A DNA stretch of 5,899 bases from a bacterium (GTDB lineage: Bacteria; Blakebacterota; Blakebacteria; Blakebacterales; Blakebacteraceae). The notes beneath the pieces were generated by a model, which saw nothing but the letters and a program-made list of their open reading frames with translations, searched no databases and had not been told where the DNA came from. A program made the position numbers and the translations under genes. Position 1 is the first letter of the stretch, and each line of letters begins with the position of its first letter. Below, piece after piece: positions 1-5,899 of the stretch. The DNA lies in the NCBI GenBank assembly GCA_025774205.1, contig JALGWK010000124.1, forward strand, positions 1 through 5,899, in the 5' to 3' direction.

Positions 1-513
1 ATCGGGCACGTCGATCCGGAAGACCGTTCCCCGTACGGCGGCCAACACCGTCGGAGTCTCGATGGTCAGATTGTTCCGGTTGGCGGCCATCTGGCGGACA
101 TTGGTCCAGACCCGCCCCCCCCTGGCCCTCGCTCTGGTGCCCGGGTTCTCAAGACTCTGGGGGGTGAGTTCGAGTTCGGTGTTCTCGTCGATCCGCATGA
201 CGAAACCCTCGTCACCGGTCTTCAGTTCGAGTCTCGACTCCGCCCCGGTCTTGACCGCGTCACCCGAGAAGAGAGACTGCTGCAGGACCGCGTCACCCGA
301 GAAGAGAGACTGCTGCAGGACCAGCCCGGTCCACTCCTCGCTCTGGGCCTTTCTGTAGCCGACGTCACCCAGGTAGAAGCTGACCCTGGCCAGCACCCAG
401 GCCTGACCCGATATGATCACGGCGGTTACCATCAGGACCGCGACCGTTATCAGTATCGATCCCGGAACACGCCCGTCTATCCGCCCCCCACTTACCCGGA
501 GAGGACGGTTCAC
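1..513 (-). CDS. FecR-domain protein with N-terminal membrane anchor or signal (3' part missing)
   Basis: The first 171 codons are visible, read from a GTG at 513; the gene continues past the left edge. Residues about 18-42 are hydrophobic (GSILITVAVLMVTAVII...) after a basic start, so this is a signal anchor or signal peptide and the rest should be periplasmic. From about residue 53 it follows the FecR domain pattern: W61 in EEWTGL, the GD-V-TG-S turn (G84 to S93), a hydrophobic pair of strands, NTELEL (111-116), GGRVWTNV (132-139) and the hallmark TPTVLAAVRGTVFRI (153-167). FecR domains transmit signals or bind partners in the periplasm; classical FecR works with a FecI sigma factor, but none is visible here. 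The GTG overlaps the stop of the upstream gene in GTGA, and AAGGAG lies 5 nt before it. An 11-residue unit is duplicated at residues 65-86, and a run of eight G falls in codons 131-133. Family assignment is firm; the specific role is unknown. Confidence 0.88.
   Translation of the reverse strand, partial: MNRPLRVSGGRIDGRVPGSILITVAVLMVTAVIISGQAWVLARVSFYLGDVGYRKAQSEEWTGLVLQQSLFSGDAVLQQSLFSGDAVKTGAESRLELKTGDEGFVMRIDENTELELTPQSLENPGTRARARGGRVWTNVRQMAANRNNLTIETPTVLAAVRGTVFRIDVPD
253..322 (-). repeat. Perfect 33-bp in-frame tandem duplication inside the FecR-domain gene
   Basis: Two identical 33-bp units abut at 253-285 and 286-318, and the identity runs on for 4 more bases (gacc, 319-322). In protein terms the unit VLQQSLFSGDA occurs twice, at residues 65-75 and 76-86. 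Because 33 is a multiple of three the frame stays open. Removing one copy gives a normally spaced FecR strand-turn (W-x-x-L ... GD-V-x-TG), so the second copy looks like an insertion into the canonical fold. Zero divergence implies either a very recent event or an assembly artefact. Confidence 0.95.
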
Positions 514-1712
514 CGTGGCTCCTTCGGGGTTACCCTGATCCGGACCTGGTTGGCGGTAACCCCCGTCACTTCGATGGTGAACTCTTCCCAGGCCTTCGAG
601 GCGAGTTCGGTCGCCAGTCCCATGGCGTCGGTCCCGGCACGCACCTCCAGGACCGCCAGACCTTCGAGGAAACTCTTCTGGGTCACTTCTTCAACCCCGC
701 GGACATAATAGGGAAGCCGCTGGCGGAACTGCTGCAGCTGCATGAAACCGATCTGGTTGACGATGTGCAGTTCGATCACGCGACTGCCCGTGACCTCCGC
801 GTTCCAGCGCTCGAGGATCATCTCCTCGAGCCGCGGTCCCAGCCGGTTCATGGCCCGCTCGATACCACGGGCCGAGCCGTCGACCGGGCTGAGCCCCATG
901 CCGGCGTCGTTCTCCTGCGAGGTTGCCATGATCTCACCGGTGTCGGCCCGGAGGATCCTCATGGTGATATTGACCGTCATGCTGATCATGTTGCCGTACT
1001 GGGCAGTCCCCTTTTTAGAGACGGTTGTGCCGAGTACGATCACCTCCGCCTGGTGGGCGCGGCCGATCGTGACCGCCTGGGCCACGTCACCTTCCAGGGC
1101 CGACTGCAGGACACTGGCCTGAGTGTTCATCGCCACCGTCGTCGGATCGACGAAGCGGAAGCCCTTCGGCTGGAGCATCTCCATGAAGAGGGTCGTCGTG
1201 GTGGCATTGTCGACCGTTGTCGGGACGCGTTCCTCACCACCCTCGTCGATGAAGATCTGCTCGTCGATCAGCACCAGCAGACGGGGATAGTTCATCCGGG
1301 ACATCAGCACCCCGATCGCCGCGAGATCAGATACCAGCTGCGACTCCTTCACCGTGGCCCGCATGGTGATGGTGATCATGTCGGGCTCTTCCATCTCGTT
1401 GGTGATCTCATAGTTCGAGATGTATCCGCTTGTCTGGGTGTAGATGTTGTCCTGGATCAGCATGAAGTTCTCGGTGATCGTGGAGCTCTGCACATGCGTG
1501 CCCATGACCTGCTCCACGGCGTTCCTCTGGGCATCGTTTATCGCGTCGTCCCGAGCCTTCGCCCTGTCACCCGCGATGATCGAGCCATAGCCCTGCACGG
1601 TGACCATCCGGCCTTCCTGGGGCACATCCTGGGCCTGTGAAGAAGCCGGCAGGATGAAGCCAAGGCCCAGTACCAGCAGGGCTGCCTGTTTCACGTATCG
1701 GTTACCGGACAC
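510..1712 (-). CDS. FlgT-like secreted protein (LPP20-like N-domain, CsgG-like middle domain)
   Basis: A 400-residue exported protein. Residues 1-27 form a signal peptide (hydrophobic 10-23, probable cleavage after S25-Q26-A27). Residues about 36-125 match the LPP20/FlgT N-terminal pattern: VQGYGSIIAGD, then AxxDAxxxAxRNAVEQVMGT, STITEN, and a GYISNYEI strand. Residues about 142-302 look CsgG/TolB-N-like: YPRLLVLIDE, a long helix pair with IGRAHQAEVIVLGTTV (216-231), ITMRILRADTGEIMA (249-263) and a closing helix to RW303. Residues about 308-396 form a small alpha/beta domain like the FlgT C-domain. The three-part order and length resemble Vibrio FlgT, an outer-membrane flagellar H-ring protein, but identity is low by eye and no flagellar genes are visible. 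There are no cysteines. The start is GTG at 1712, overlapping the previous stop by 1 nt (TAGTG), with AAGGGGGTG upstream. GTG at codon 7 is a possible alternative, giving MKQAALL..., but it lacks a ribosome binding site. Fold class is likely; function is inferred. Confidence 0.82.
   Translation of the reverse strand: MSGNRYVKQAALLVLGLGFILPASSQAQDVPQEGRMVTVQGYGSIIAGDRAKARDDAINDAQRNAVEQVMGTHVQSSTITENFMLIQDNIYTQTSGYISNYEITNEMEEPDMITITMRATVKESQLVSDLAAIGVLMSRMNYPRLLVLIDEQIFIDEGGEERVPTTVDNATTTTLFMEMLQPKGFRFVDPTTVAMNTQASVLQSALEGDVAQAVTIGRAHQAEVIVLGTTVSKKGTAQYGNMISMTVNITMRILRADTGEIMATSQENDAGMGLSPVDGSARGIERAMNRLGPRLEEMILERWNAEVTGSRVIELHIVNQIGFMQLQQFRQRLPYYVRGVEEVTQKSFLEGLAVLEVRAGTDAMGLATELASKAWEEFTIEVTGVTANQVRIRVTPKEPR
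519..524 (-). promoter_or_regulatory. Ribosome binding site for the FecR-domain gene
   Basis: AAGGAG on the minus strand, 5 nt before the GTG at 513-511. It lies within the last codons of the upstream FlgT-like gene (its K-E-P-R end), which suggests translational coupling through the GTGA stop/start overlap. It supports a GTG start in a stretch with no ATG until codon 28, inside the hydrophobic segment. Confidence 0.85.
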
Positions 1713-2830
1713 TATTCCAGCACCCCCTTCAGATTGCGGATGATGAGAATCGCCTCATGTCCCGGCAGAGTACCCTCAAGGAAGAACGTCCCGTCCGGTT
1801 TGCCGTCCATGATGCCGCGGGTTGTAGCGAGCATGACCGCGTTGAACGCGAAATGGGTTCCGTTCACATCCGGGAAGGGACTCGTGTTGCCGAAGAACCG
1901 GGATCTCAAGCTGGTATCATTCCAGGCCTTGACGAGGACACGTTGGATGAGCATGGCCATGTCCACCCGGGTGACCACCTGGTTCGGCCTGAACGAACCG
2001 TCCGGCATCAGGTCGACTGCCCCGAGCAGGACGCACTTCTCGATGTGCTGGCGTGCCCAGTGGTCCCCCATGACGTCGGTCGGCGCCGCGATCCGGCCGG
2101 CCGCGGGATTCGCCTGGTTCGGGGGGACGAAGGTGCGCGCCCGGGGTGTCTGCTGCCCCACGAATATCTCCTGCAGGTCGAGTTCGGAGTTGAGGAGGAC
2201 CGCCAGCTCCGCCCGGCTCACCGCCTGGCTGAGGGCGATCTCCTTGTACTCATCGGGCACCCCGAGGGTGGCCCGCTGCATCTCACTGACCCGCTGCCAG
2301 CCATCGTTCAGCCCGGCATTGGTCGGGATCTCGGTGATCCCGCGGCGGTAGGCGTCCGCCGCGGCATTGAAGTCCCTGAGTTCCACGTGTGTCTGACCGA
2401 GGTACTCGTATGCGGGAGCGTACTTCGAGTCGATCTCGATGGCGTTCTCGAAGGCCCTGATACCCCGGTTGTGCTGTCCCTGCATCACATAGGCCCGACC
2501 GAGACCGACGTGGGCCGGTACGTATTCCCCATCCCTGTCAATCGATCGCCTGAACTCCCGTTCGGCGCCCGCTCCGTCGCCATCTTCCAGCGCGCAGAGA
2601 CCGAGCCCTTCGTAACCGGGCGCGAAGTCCCGGTCGAGACCGATCGCGTATTCGAACTCGTGCCGCGCCTCGGCGACCTGGCCGCGCGCGAGGAACTCGA
2701 TCCCCGCCTGGTAGTGGGCTTCCGGCGTGTCGAGTACCGACTGCTGCGAGAATTTCCCGGCACACGAAGTGAGTGCCACAGCCAGGAGGATGGCCGCCGG
2801 GACCTTGCATAATCTGATAATCGGCTTCAT
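1712..2830 (-). CDS. TPR lipoprotein with C-terminal SLH repeats
   Basis: A 372-residue lipoprotein. The N-terminus is a type II signal peptide with lipobox L20-T-S-C23, so the mature protein starts at C23 and is membrane-anchored; A24 rather than Asp at +2 is compatible with outer-membrane sorting by the E. coli rule. Four consecutive 34-residue TPR units follow at about 38-71, 72-105, 106-139 and 140-173, with G-x-A-x-x-x-G helix-turn spacing and the acidic-aromatic-Pro ends (FAP, YVP, YAP). The C-terminal part carries SLH repeats: one at about 252-298 (DVMGDHWA, then LMPDGSFRPNQVVTR) and one at about 319-368 (FPDVNGTHFA, then GIMDGKPDGTF), with a partial one near 204-216 (VSRAELAVLL). SLH repeats bind cell-wall polymers or peptidoglycan-linked glycans; TPRs bind proteins. 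It therefore looks like a tether between an envelope complex and the wall. The ATG at 2830 has AAAGGAG at 2838-2844, 7 nt upstream. It follows the LPP20-like gene by 37 nt. Confidence 0.9.
   Translation of the reverse strand: MKPIIRLCKVPAAILLAVALTSCAGKFSQQSVLDTPEAHYQAGIEFLARGQVAEARHEFEYAIGLDRDFAPGYEGLGLCALEDGDGAGAEREFRRSIDRDGEYVPAHVGLGRAYVMQGQHNRGIRAFENAIEIDSKYAPAYEYLGQTHVELRDFNAAADAYRRGITEIPTNAGLNDGWQRVSEMQRATLGVPDEYKEIALSQAVSRAELAVLLNSELDLQEIFVGQQTPRARTFVPPNQANPAAGRIAAPTDVMGDHWARQHIEKCVLLGAVDLMPDGSFRPNQVVTRVDMAMLIQRVLVKAWNDTSLRSRFFGNTSPFPDVNGTHFAFNAVMLATTRGIMDGKPDGTFFLEGTLPGHEAILIIRNLKGVLE
1721..1729 (-). promoter_or_regulatory. Probable ribosome binding site for the FlgT-like gene
   Basis: AAGGGGGTG on the minus strand matches the anti-Shine-Dalgarno complement AAGGAGGTG at all but one base. 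It ends 8 nt before the GTG at 1712-1710. It lies in the last codons of the TPR-SLH gene. It favours the first GTG over the GTG 18 nt downstream, which has no such site. Confidence 0.6.
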
Positions 2831-2867
2831 CGTGCCGCTCCTTTACCGGTCAGGATGTTCGCGTACG

Positions 2868-3719
2868 CTATTCGGCTCCGAGTACGATCATCACCCGGCA
2901 TTCGTCCAGGAAGGGCAGGTTCCCTGCCGCCTGGCGGATCCGGCGGGCATCCTGATTCGAGATGATGAGATCGCACCCGTTGGGGCCGGTCGTGCGAAGA
3001 GCCCGAACGACGAGGGGGTTGCCTGCGACCCGTTCATCCTCGCTGGCCCTGGCGACATTGTTGTGGTATCCCACCACACCCTGCTGCATGGCGTACTGCC
3101 GCATCACTTTGGTGGTGCCGTAGACCTCATCGCCATTCTCATCCAGGATCTTTGGAGCCATGGCGGGGGCGGCATCGAGGCCGGTGGCGTCCACGACCAC
3201 TCCACTGACCGCACCGGTCGCGCGGGATGGAGGCGGTGTCCCTGGCGCAGGTGGCTCACCACCCGGCCGTCCGCCGGCTTCCCCTGGAAGCACGGCGTCG
3301 TAGAGTGCCCCGGTGATCGGCATCTCCACGATGACTCCGACATCCATGCTCTCGAAATAAATTATATCGAGGACAGTGAAATCGCTGACGACTCCCTCAA
3401 TGTGCGACTTGATGATATCGCTGGTGAGCATCGAGTTCTCGACGGTCGTCGTCGATGACACCGTGACTCCCTTGACCGCTTCCAGGAGGTCCCGGTAAGC
3501 GGACTGCCTTGCCGCCCTCAGGGCGGAAGACCTCCAGGCCGGCTGGGGCAGAGCGGTATTCGGCGCACCGAGACTGTGCGTGATGACCATCTGTCGCTCC
3601 CAATCGATAAGGAAAGCGCCGGGCTCAGGATAATTCTCCTCCTGGGCCTGCACTCCCATGATCGGGATCAGCAGCAGTCCGGTGAACAGGATCGAGATAT
3701 ATGGGCGTAACGGCCTCAT
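2868..3719 (-). CDS. Secreted LPP20/FlgP-like protein with a conserved uncharacterised C-terminal domain
   Basis: A 283-residue exported protein, counted from the ATG at 3719. Residues 1-25 form a signal peptide (hydrophobic 8-22, cleavage after V23-Q24-A25). There is no lipobox cysteine, so it is soluble or peripheral rather than a lipoprotein. Residues about 64-137 are LPP20-like: ALRAARQSAYRDLLEAVKGV, STTTVENSML and a VVSDFTVLDI strand, ending in VGVIVEMPITG. A proline/glycine-rich linker spans about 145-166. The C-terminal domain begins GVVVDATGLDAAPAMAPKI (173-191), followed by LDENGDEVYG; this motif recurs in FlgP-like proteins of other bacteria as I recall, but its function is unknown to me. 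The only two cysteines, C249 and C274, sit in this domain and could form a periplasmic disulfide. An ATG at 3746 is in frame (9 residues longer, TAATG overlap with the cyclase stop) but has no ribosome binding site and would put acidic residues ahead of the signal peptide. Confidence 0.8.
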   Translation of the reverse strand: MRPLRPYISILFTGLLLIPIMGVQAQEENYPEPGAFLIDWERQMVITHSLGAPNTALPQPAWRSSALRAARQSAYRDLLEAVKGVTVSSTTTVENSMLTSDIIKSHIEGVVSDFTVLDIIYFESMDVGVIVEMPITGALYDAVLPGEAGGRPGGEPPAPGTPPPSRATGAVSGVVVDATGLDAAPAMAPKILDENGDEVYGTTKVMRQYAMQQGVVGYHNNVARASEDERVAGNPLVVRALRTTGPNGCDLIISNQDARRIRQAAGNLPFLDECRVMIVLGAE

Positions 3720-3724
3720 GCCGT

Positions 3725-3731
3725 CCTCCTT
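3725..3731 (-). promoter_or_regulatory. Ribosome binding site that sets the start of the LPP20/FlgP-like gene
   Basis: A full AAGGAGG on the minus strand, 5 nt before the ATG at 3719-3717. It is the strongest ribosome binding site in the window. It makes the downstream ATG the better start than the ATG at 3746, and it leaves a 26-nt gap after the cyclase stop instead of a 1-nt overlap. Confidence 0.85.
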
Positions 3732-3745
3732 GGTGGCTTCCTGCA

Positions 3746-5899
3746 TTACTTCGTGGTCATGATCCAGACGCCGTCCCAGTCATCATCGGGCGGCTCCGAT
3801 TTCAGGTGACTGCACCGCTCGGCGAAGATCTGTGACGCCGGATCATCCTCGAGCGCAGTAAAAATATCCAGGGCCTCATCCCACTTCTGCATCCGGTACA
3901 ATCGTAGGGCTTCCGCGAATCGCTCGGCAAGGAGCTGGTTCCCTTCGGTGTCGTCCGGTGATCCCTTCCGCGCCATCACTTCGAAGATGACCACCGGCTT
4001 CTCCTTCCCCTTGACCCGCACGCCATCGAGTTCGCGGACCAGGAAGTGATTGCCGACCGCCTCCCGGGTCGATTCCGAGATCAGCAGGCTCACCCCGTAC
4101 TGCCGGGTGAGCGCCTCCAGCCGGGCCGCCAGGTTCACATTGTCCCCGAGGACCGTGTAGTCAAAGCGGACATCACTACCCATGTTCCCAACCACGACCG
4201 GTCCGGTGTTCAACCCCAGCTTGAGATCGAACTTCTCCGGGAGAAAATCACCCCACTCTTCCCGGACGCTGTCGAGTTCGTCATGCATGCCGAGGGCGGC
4301 GTCGAGGGCCTTGACGGCGTGGTCGTCGAAGGGGAGCGGGGCGCCGAAGATAGCCATGATGGCGTCGCCGATGTATTTGTCGACCGTTCCCTGGAACTCG
4401 AAGATCCGGTTCGTCATGATGGTGAGGAACTTGTTGAGGAAATTGGTCAGCTCCTCCGGCTCGAGCTTCTCACTGAAGCCCGTGAAGCCCTGAATGTCGG
4501 CGAAGAGTATGGTCAGTTCCCGGCGTTCCCCACCCAGCTGGAGTTTGTCGGGATCATCGAGCATCTCGTCAACGACCGCCGGTGAGACATACTGCTGGAA
4601 GGCGCCCTTGATCACCCGCTTCTGTTTCTCTTCGGTCATGTAACGGTAAACCATGGCGCTGGTGTATCCGACCACCAGGCCGAAGGCAGGCCGGAAGAGT
4701 TCCACCCAGTAGGCCCACTTCACCATCGCGTAGACAGCCGCCACCAGCCAGACGATGAAGAGAGCTGTGCTCAGGAGCGCTCCGATCGAGATCCGGAAAC
4801 GGAAAGCGAAGAAGGCCACGAGCGCCCCGAGGAAAACGGTGAGGATGATCCCCAGGGTCTCCCCCATCGACGTAACGGAATGCCCGAGAGCCAGGTTGGA
4901 GAACAGCGTGGTGTGGATCTTCACTCCGGCCAGGGCCGGATCGGAGGGCGTCGGCTTGATGTCTCCGAGGGCTGCCGCGGTCGGACCGACCATGATCACC
5001 TTGCCGGCGAAGAATTCACCCGGCACCCGATCCTCCAGCACATCGTAGTAGGAGATCTCCATATAGGGCGGCGCATGGGTGGAATACCATTGCATCAGGT
5101 AACGCCCCTGCGAATCGATCGGGAATTCGATGTTGCCGATCTTGAGGGCTTCGCCGGGGATCACCTCGATCTCATCGAAATTGATGCCCACCAGATCGAG
5201 GAAGAGACGCAACGCTACGGTCGGCATCACGTAATCCCCGTTCCGGGTGAGCAGGGACTGACGGCGGACCACGCCATCTTCATCGGGGAAGGCGTTTACC
5301 AGCCCGAGACCCGCGCTGGCGCGCGTGATCCGGGGGATCGGTCCCTCCAGCAATTGCCGCCGGCGGGCGCTCAGGTCGGGCAGCTGATCGGCTCCCTTGA
5401 TCCGGTCGACCAGGATGACCGAGCGGGGATTGTTGTTGATGACCTCCATTTCATCGACGGTGGACATGAAGACGAAGCTGGAACTGTCTATGAGGCTGAT
5501 GGCCGAATACACAACCCCGGCGTCGGAAAATCCTTCAGCGACCCGCCGGTCTACCTCCGGATCGACATCCTCCTGGAAGAAGACGATATCGTAGAAGATC
5601 GCCGCCGCCCCCCAGTCGGCCAGCTTCTGCGCCAGTTCCGAGTGGTATTCCCGGGGCCACTGCGAAAATCTTCCGTACTCCTTCAGGGAACGGTCGTCGA
5701 TCCTGATCAGGACGATCATCCCCTCGTAGCCGTCATATTCGTCGAGCTGGGTGGCCAGCCGGACACGCATGTCGTAGAGCTGGTACTCAAGCCCCTGGAA
5801 GAATCCCGGCGCGATCAGGTAGGTGAAGAGCGCAATGATGAGCGCCGCGCCTCCGCCTACCAGCAGCGTCCGCAGGATCGTCCAGCCGCTCCCGGCTTT
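3746..5899 (-). CDS. CHASE2-sensor, membrane-bound class III adenylate cyclase (5' end missing)
   Basis: Makes cAMP from ATP under control of an extracytoplasmic sensor. The frame is open to the right edge, so 717 residues are visible and the true start lies outside. Visible residues 11-30 are a first membrane helix (LLVGGGAALIIALF...). CHASE2 spans about 33-336: E38...YDMRVR (42-47), VLIRIDDRSL (63-72), GLGLVNAFPDEDGVVRR (197-213) and FFAGKVIMVGPTAAALGD (296-313). Three membrane helices follow at about 347-366, 370-393 and 401-421. A cyclase linker (FQQYVSPAVVDEML) leads to the catalytic domain at about 460-643. Catalytic residues are all present: metal-binding D468 (FADIQGFT) and D512, adenine-contacting K508 (VDKYIGD) and T582 (DYTVLGD, the class IIIb type), N589 and R593 (VNLAAR). 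After a linker, a TPR-like helix pair (about 655-695) ends in DWDGVWIMTTK, a tail common to this cyclase group. An ATG at 5770 lies inside the YDMRVR motif and is internal. Cyclase activity is likely; the CHASE2 ligand is unknown. Confidence 0.95.
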   Translation of the reverse strand, partial: KAGSGWTILRTLLVGGGAALIIALFTYLIAPGFFQGLEYQLYDMRVRLATQLDEYDGYEGMIVLIRIDDRSLKEYGRFSQWPREYHSELAQKLADWGAAAIFYDIVFFQEDVDPEVDRRVAEGFSDAGVVYSAISLIDSSSFVFMSTVDEMEVINNNPRSVILVDRIKGADQLPDLSARRRQLLEGPIPRITRASAGLGLVNAFPDEDGVVRRQSLLTRNGDYVMPTVALRLFLDLVGINFDEIEVIPGEALKIGNIEFPIDSQGRYLMQWYSTHAPPYMEISYYDVLEDRVPGEFFAGKVIMVGPTAAALGDIKPTPSDPALAGVKIHTTLFSNLALGHSVTSMGETLGIILTVFLGALVAFFAFRFRISIGALLSTALFIVWLVAAVYAMVKWAYWVELFRPAFGLVVGYTSAMVYRYMTEEKQKRVIKGAFQQYVSPAVVDEMLDDPDKLQLGGERRELTILFADIQGFTGFSEKLEPEELTNFLNKFLTIMTNRIFEFQGTVDKYIGDAIMAIFGAPLPFDDHAVKALDAALGMHDELDSVREEWGDFLPEKFDLKLGLNTGPVVVGNMGSDVRFDYTVLGDNVNLAARLEALTRQYGVSLLISESTREAVGNHFLVRELDGVRVKGKEKPVVIFEVMARKGSPDDTEGNQLLAERFAEALRLYRMQKWDEALDIFTALEDDPASQIFAERCSHLKSEPPDDDWDGVWIMTTK

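Follow-up and report, generated by a model that had tools for sequence, protein, structure and literature searches.

Genes for LPP20-type, TPR-SLH, FlgT-like and FecR proteins form a conserved envelope gene cluster, joined in some lineages by a CHASE2 adenylate cyclase

The flagellar H ring or basal disk of Vibrio and Campylobacter (FlgO, FlgP and FlgT) resembles the locus analysed here in that the genes of an FlgP-type LPP20 protein, an FlgT-type protein and a CsgG-fold protein are found together. FlgP, Lpp20 and FlgT have a common SHS2-like fold, and an insert that follows the helix, a hairpin in FlgP, is correlated with ring formation (PMC12222027). The D1-D2 domain pair of Treponema pallidum Tp0624 (PDB 5JIR), a protein that also has an OmpA-like domain D3, has been reported as a unit in almost 50 proteins from a variety of bacteria, with no role assigned to it (PMC5104382). 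The outer-membrane tethers OmpM and SlpA are beta-barrel porins with an SLH domain expected to grip the cell wall, and OmpM has been reported absent from Gracilicutes (PMC10628300). In Burkholderia, FecR adjoining a CHASE2 histidine kinase has been published (PMC5192318), and the BiofilmReg operon places a periplasmic FecR-LysM protein beside a CHASE2 sensor, a wall-binding domain also being close by.

The DNA compared with these systems, called the window below, is a whole contig of 5,899 nt (G000:C381, 1-5899) from a MAG of 3.09 Mb in 527 contigs that is 85.9% complete; since it spans a contig of this fragmented MAG from end to end, the first and last genes are truncated. The five ORFs all lie on the minus strand, ordered cyclase, LPP20, TPR-SLH, FlgT-like and FecR (Table 1). 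The first-pass annotation had described five tightly spaced same-strand genes, and analysis of domains and junctions agreed with it: the cyclase and LPP20 genes overlap by 1 nt when LPP20 is read from its first ATG (3746), or are 26 nt apart, the distance originally given, when it is read from an internal ATG at 3719; LPP20 and TPR-SLH are separated by 37 nt, TPR-SLH and FlgT-like overlap by 1 nt and FlgT-like and FecR overlap by 4 nt. Signal-peptide-like N-termini were seen in the LPP20 and FlgT-like proteins. Scans for promoters and terminators yielded no usable prediction. Contig C511 of the same bin (L023, G000:C511, 1-760), which probably represents a co-binned strain, overlaps the cyclase end of the window at 89.9% DNA identity; its cyclase begins with GTG about seven codons past the window edge and is preceded on the same strand by a large gene for a secreted protein. 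This upstream gene is apparently frameshifted and its end, read by eye past the probable frameshift, is 9 nt before the cyclase GTG, so that the transcription unit may start further upstream.

Table 1. Features of the window (nucleotide positions) and the evidence on which each assignment is based
Feature	Position	Strand	Evidence or remark
CHASE2 class III adenylate cyclase	3746..5899	-	717 aa shown, 5' end cut; Pfam CHASE2, Guanylate_cyc
CHASE2 domain of cyclase	about 4823-5836	-	Pfam CHASE2 2.2e-47
Catalytic domain of cyclase	about 3995-4519	-	Pfam Guanylate_cyc 5.1e-27
Exported LPP20-fold protein	2868..3746	-	Pfam LPP20, profile, Foldseek
LPP20 protein D1 (SHS2/FlgP-like)	about 3318-3614	-	as in Tp0624 D1-D2
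LPP20 protein D2	about 2883-3203	-	as in Tp0624 D1-D2
TPR-SLH lipoprotein	1712..2830	-	Pfam TPR_2 1.5e-16, SLH 5.1e-16; 372 aa
SLH repeats of TPR-SLH	1955-2080 and 1784-1879	-	SLH search
Exported FlgT-like protein (FlgT_N/LPP20-like)	510..1712	-	Pfam FlgT_N 3.9e-7, AlphaFold2, Foldseek
FecR-domain protein, N-terminal hydrophobic anchor	1..513	-	3' end cut; Pfam FecR 1.8e-8
In-frame 33-nt tandem duplication in FecR gene	255..320	-	LQQSLFSGDAV twice; single copy in same-genus relative L019

The Pfam LPP20 match of the exported LPP20 protein (9e-5, 23.3 bits) is under the cut-off of 25.9 and is backed by profile and fold searches. The family profile matched Tp0624 (5jir) with 1.5e-13 at profile positions 27-279, covering both D1 and D2, and matched Campylobacter jejuni FlgP (9hmf, 1.6e-12) and the FlgP chain of the Vibrio ring (8z5n, 7.8e-9) over D1. 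The sequence relationship to Tp0624 spans both domains and the window protein matches D1-D2 end to end, while the OmpA-like D3 is missing from it and a predicted wall-binding domain is found instead in the neighbouring TPR-SLH protein. The model of the LPP20 protein (pLDDT 80.8) also retrieved 5jir in Foldseek (1.3e-9). The D1 domain conforms to the FlgP type with an insert after the helix; the insert region, about 31 residues between helix 68-92 and strand 124-130, is modelled at low confidence, and the profile alignment to the FlgP structures runs continuously through it.

The FlgT-like protein is composed of FlgT_N (aa 36-121), a middle domain of CsgG/TolB_N/PelC fold (about 142-303) and a C-terminal domain (about 310-396). 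The FlgT_N match (30.9 bits) is above the Pfam cut-off of 28.8, and the best Foldseek matches of the AlphaFold2 model (pLDDT 83.9) were FlgT (3w1e, 4e-11) and FlgT in the Vibrio ring (8z5n, 3e-10). VIA alignment to 8z5n gave Z 10.9 with 223 aligned residues and rmsd 5.3 over residues 37-304, indicating N and M domains of the FlgT type. The C-terminal domain (aa 310-396) is confidently modelled and is spanned by few fold-comparison rows. The nearest NCBIfam models to the window proteins, Leptospira LipL46 (71.4 bits) and FecR-type LipL45 (37 bits), scored far under the family cut-offs of 400 and 350, and the assignment of the FlgT-like protein to LipL46 (NF033164) was rejected on that score. 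Searches of PHROGs returned no match for the FlgT-like or LPP20 proteins and weak matches for TPR-SLH.

Only three relatives from the family of the window were included (G001, G002 and G003), the next genomes sharing only the domain with it. In these three the cyclase, LPP20, TPR-SLH, FlgT-like and FecR genes follow each other in the same order as far as contig ends allow; the G003 contig begins within LPP20, which places the cyclase outside the sequence. A contig search with the single FlgT-like sequence as query gave no match, and the FlgT-like profile matched 135 of 386 genomes. Scanning of the named genomes with an LPP20 profile built from seven closer proteins yielded 80 loci in Calditrichota, KSB1, Desulfobacterota, Latescibacterota, Fibrobacterota and others, and the order LPP20, TPR-SLH, FlgT-like, (CsgG-like), FecR was found to recur in Calditrichota, KSB1, Desulfobacterota and other groups. 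LPP20 was directly followed on the same strand by TPR-SLH in 83/88 loci, TPR-SLH by FlgT-like in 65/70 and FlgT-like by CsgG-like in 41/53. Among the 40 well-covered loci, those with at least 7 kb downstream, same-strand genes within 7.5 kb coded for TPR-SLH (37), FlgT-like (34), FecR (29), CsgG-like (28) and cyclase (4), where the LPP20 and FlgT-like frequencies are biased by the picking of loci with either protein while those of TPR-SLH, FecR and CsgG-like are unbiased. Grouping at 60% identity split the 101 LPP20 proteins into 28 clusters. When all proteins of the neighbourhoods were clustered against each other, the five largest clusters were exactly these five families, followed mostly by housekeeping genes. 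Conservation of the gene order is far beyond chance. The first-pass annotation had proposed one envelope unit and left the decision to a gene-neighbourhood search, in which unlinked and scattered homologues would have counted against it; no such scattering was seen, and the exported genes kept their order and strand across many phyla.

Departures from this arrangement were also found. TPR-SLH is absent at the locus in Latescibacterota and in family f44, and in Fibrobacterota-type loci (L157, L162, L165 and L177) LPP20 and TPR-SLH were the only ones observed. The LPP20 protein of family f44 (L027, 5670-7400) has 576 aa, including an additional N-terminal region and an FlgT_N-like stretch, and is encoded directly before the cyclase. 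In G001 the FecR gene is followed by genes for a CsgG/LpoB-like protein, a TlpA-like thioredoxin, TsaE and a GAF-SpoIIE phosphatase; further downstream (L019, 10059-16520) a 2153-aa protein with a subtilase-like start and many kelch-like repeats was read by eye.

The conserved gene set is real, the proteins it encodes add new members to known families, and the cluster is apparently undescribed. Among the papers searched we found none describing it; those pairing any two of LPP20, FecR and FlgT were all flagellar, and the single one pairing any two of LPP20, CsgG and S-layer homology concerned Anabaena. The cluster gives Tp0624 D1-D2 proteins, of known structure and previously without a system, a home, and offers a concrete target in several poorly studied phyla.

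Of the 25 carrier genomes, 18 have no FliF and 19 no rod domain. Thirteen of the carriers lacking FliF are at least 95% complete (G290, G371, G108, G244, G260, G123, G152, G172, G151, G126, G132, G269 and G046); absence of FliF in the four genomes of the window family is weaker evidence because these are 63-86% complete. Two carriers with flagella that were examined, G076 and G217, have the module on a different contig from the FliF and rod matches. A flagellar module was therefore rejected, as most carriers are without FliF and the rod domain. The module may act like an H ring, though it is not one in genomes without FliF, and it differs from the H ring by the additional TPR-SLH and FecR proteins and by the extra D2 of its FlgP-like protein.

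The explanation that we favour, and to which we would give an even chance, is a non-flagellar, peptidoglycan-anchored outer-membrane ring or scaffold that is monitored by FecR and to which CHASE2-dependent cAMP synthesis was added in some lineages. Four exported proteins, usually with a CsgG-like fifth, would make up an envelope module conserved in diderm bacteria. In it the TPR-SLH lipoprotein would be inserted in the inner leaflet of the outer membrane with its SLH repeats holding the cell wall; the Tp0624 D1-D2/FlgP-like and FlgT-like proteins, with the CsgG-like one where present, would assemble into an outer-membrane-associated ring or scaffold resembling the H ring without a flagellum, and in the periplasm FecR would sense the state of this assembly. 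Where the operon also has a CHASE2 adenylate cyclase, as in the window family and a few other lineages, that enzyme would convert the FecR reading into cAMP. The gene content, its conserved order, the fold relationships, the missing flagellar genes and the intact cyclase motifs were observed, and from them the outer-membrane location, wall binding, ring formation, FecR-CHASE2 contact and cAMP output are inferred; against a ring, LPP20 and CsgG folds also serve lipoproteins that form none. By extension, flagellar FlgO-FlgP-FlgT could be one specialised branch of a wider and older non-flagellar outer-membrane ring system, with TPR-SLH as wall anchor, FecR as monitor and, in some lineages, a coupling to cAMP. 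We offer this wider idea tentatively and think it somewhat unlikely; it suggests a possible origin for the FlgP/FlgT rings of high-torque flagella.

The CsgG-like protein of other loci matched Pfam CsgG with 3e-37, and its profile matched the solved CsgG structure with 1e-11. The window is without a CsgG-like gene, and its genus has only a weaker LpoB/CsgG-like protein after FecR. The first-pass annotation had missed this fifth exported component, the relationship to the H ring and Tp0624, and the absence of flagella. These CsgG matches, the operon's TPR protein and the middle domain of the FlgT-like protein, whose best VIA-align partner is PelC (Z 12.1), are what would be expected if the module were an export gate, in which a polymer or protein would leave through a CsgG-like outer-membrane pore with a periplasmic collar made of the other proteins, much as curli (CsgG) or Pel (the TPR protein PelB and the PelC ring) are exported. 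Yet the module is not accompanied by any conserved gene for a secreted substrate, a synthase or a beta-barrel, mostly housekeeping genes follow it, the TPR protein terminates in SLH rather than in a barrel, and part of the loci have no CsgG-like gene, so that we regard export as clearly unlikely.

The TPR-SLH protein of the window has a lipobox (LTSC, C23), TPR repeats and two SLH repeats, in both of which the TRAE motifs are degenerate. With its SLH domain expected to grip the cell wall from an outer-membrane protein it is similar to OmpM and SlpA, but it is a lipoprotein of TPR and SLH only, without a beta-barrel, and so not an OmpM-type tether. Its carriers include Gracilicutes phyla. For this group, reported to be without the SLH porin OmpM, we propose a wall anchor of another SLH type. 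Almost every SLH match in the carriers was in TPR-SLH (exceptions, G357:C74 and G371:C20). OmpA-domain proteins were present in all carriers, with several in many carriers outside the window family and a single one in each of the four genomes of that family; it measures about 580-600 aa, and a small Pal-like protein was seen in none of the four. Both the near-exclusive occurrence of SLH in TPR-SLH and the single OmpA-domain protein of the window family speak for a tether with a stress sensor and no ring, where TPR-SLH would function like Pal or OmpM, the LPP20, FlgT-like and CsgG-like proteins would monitor wall synthesis like LpoB/GNA1162-type lipoproteins, and FecR and CHASE2 would report; CsgG-like proteins also give LpoB matches. 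We consider this doubtful, since the nearest solved relatives of both LPP20-type proteins include the ring-formers FlgP and FlgT, many other carriers have several OmpA-domain proteins, and the window-family genomes that show one are incomplete.

The cyclase of the window has CHASE2 and a class III catalytic domain with D468, D512, K508, T582, N589 and R593, motif positions assigned from the sequence, which we take from family knowledge to be the metal, substrate and transition-state residues. The K508/T582 pair is presumably ATP-specific. All ten linked cyclases scanned have CHASE2 plus a cyclase domain. Their position varies: the window family and Desulfobacterales have them upstream of LPP20, Latescibacterota after FecR, G141 beside FecR, and family f44 between LPP20 and FlgT-like, there without an adjoining FecR gene. 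The cyclase was rejected as a core component, given its presence in 4/40 well-covered loci. Linked cyclases were observed in 8 of the 80 loci (0.91 Mb), which are not independent and one of which is from the window family, as against 0.2-0.6 expected from a rough, assumed CHASE2 density of 0.2-0.7 per Mb. When the linked cyclases were placed on a tree together with 15 unlinked ones, the label had to change five times, and well-supported branches force at least four of these changes; this implies either repeated recruitment or an old link that was often lost. The first-pass annotation had called the whole system cAMP-linked: recurrence of the cyclase at loci from several separate cyclase groups supports a real link, while the majority of carriers, having no cyclase at the locus, restrict it to an option. 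The cyclase is an optional partner of the module, perhaps by way of FecR, and a candidate input for envelope-derived cAMP signalling.

That CHASE2 and FecR proteins occur as neighbours, also pointed out at first pass, is borne out for CHASE2 histidine kinases by the Burkholderia report (PMC5192318) and here for cyclases, including some away from the module: a FecR-like gene was found within about 4 kb of 4/20 sampled off-module CHASE2 cyclases (L190, L197, L198 and L203), two of these cases being in genomes that carry the module elsewhere. The BiofilmReg operon differs in having a kinase where the output here is a cyclase, and it is without LPP20, FlgT-like, TPR-SLH and CsgG-like genes. The published and the off-module pairs would also fit a cyclase that is merely a passenger, CHASE2 cyclases joining FecR genes anywhere and their placement reflecting FecR only, which is compatible with either reading of the exported genes. 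Linked cyclases nevertheless recur in separate groups inside the operon, in family f44 FecR does not adjoin, and the cyclase/LPP20 junction of the window is tight; the passenger explanation is possible, and we lean only mildly against it. The second CHASE2 cyclase of the window genome (L022, G000:C220, 12602-13544) has its CHASE2 split over two frames, by a frameshift or an assembly error.

The FecR protein of the window has a complete homologue in L019 (277 aa). A C-terminal segment with P-REV and WN-RD motifs is conserved among the module FecR proteins. The 33-nt duplication in the FecR gene of the window is either a real variant or an assembly artefact. In G003 the FecR protein is fused to a TlpA-like thioredoxin (L020, 2947-4269), the two being encoded by separate genes in G001, and this fusion suggests a redox role next to FecR.
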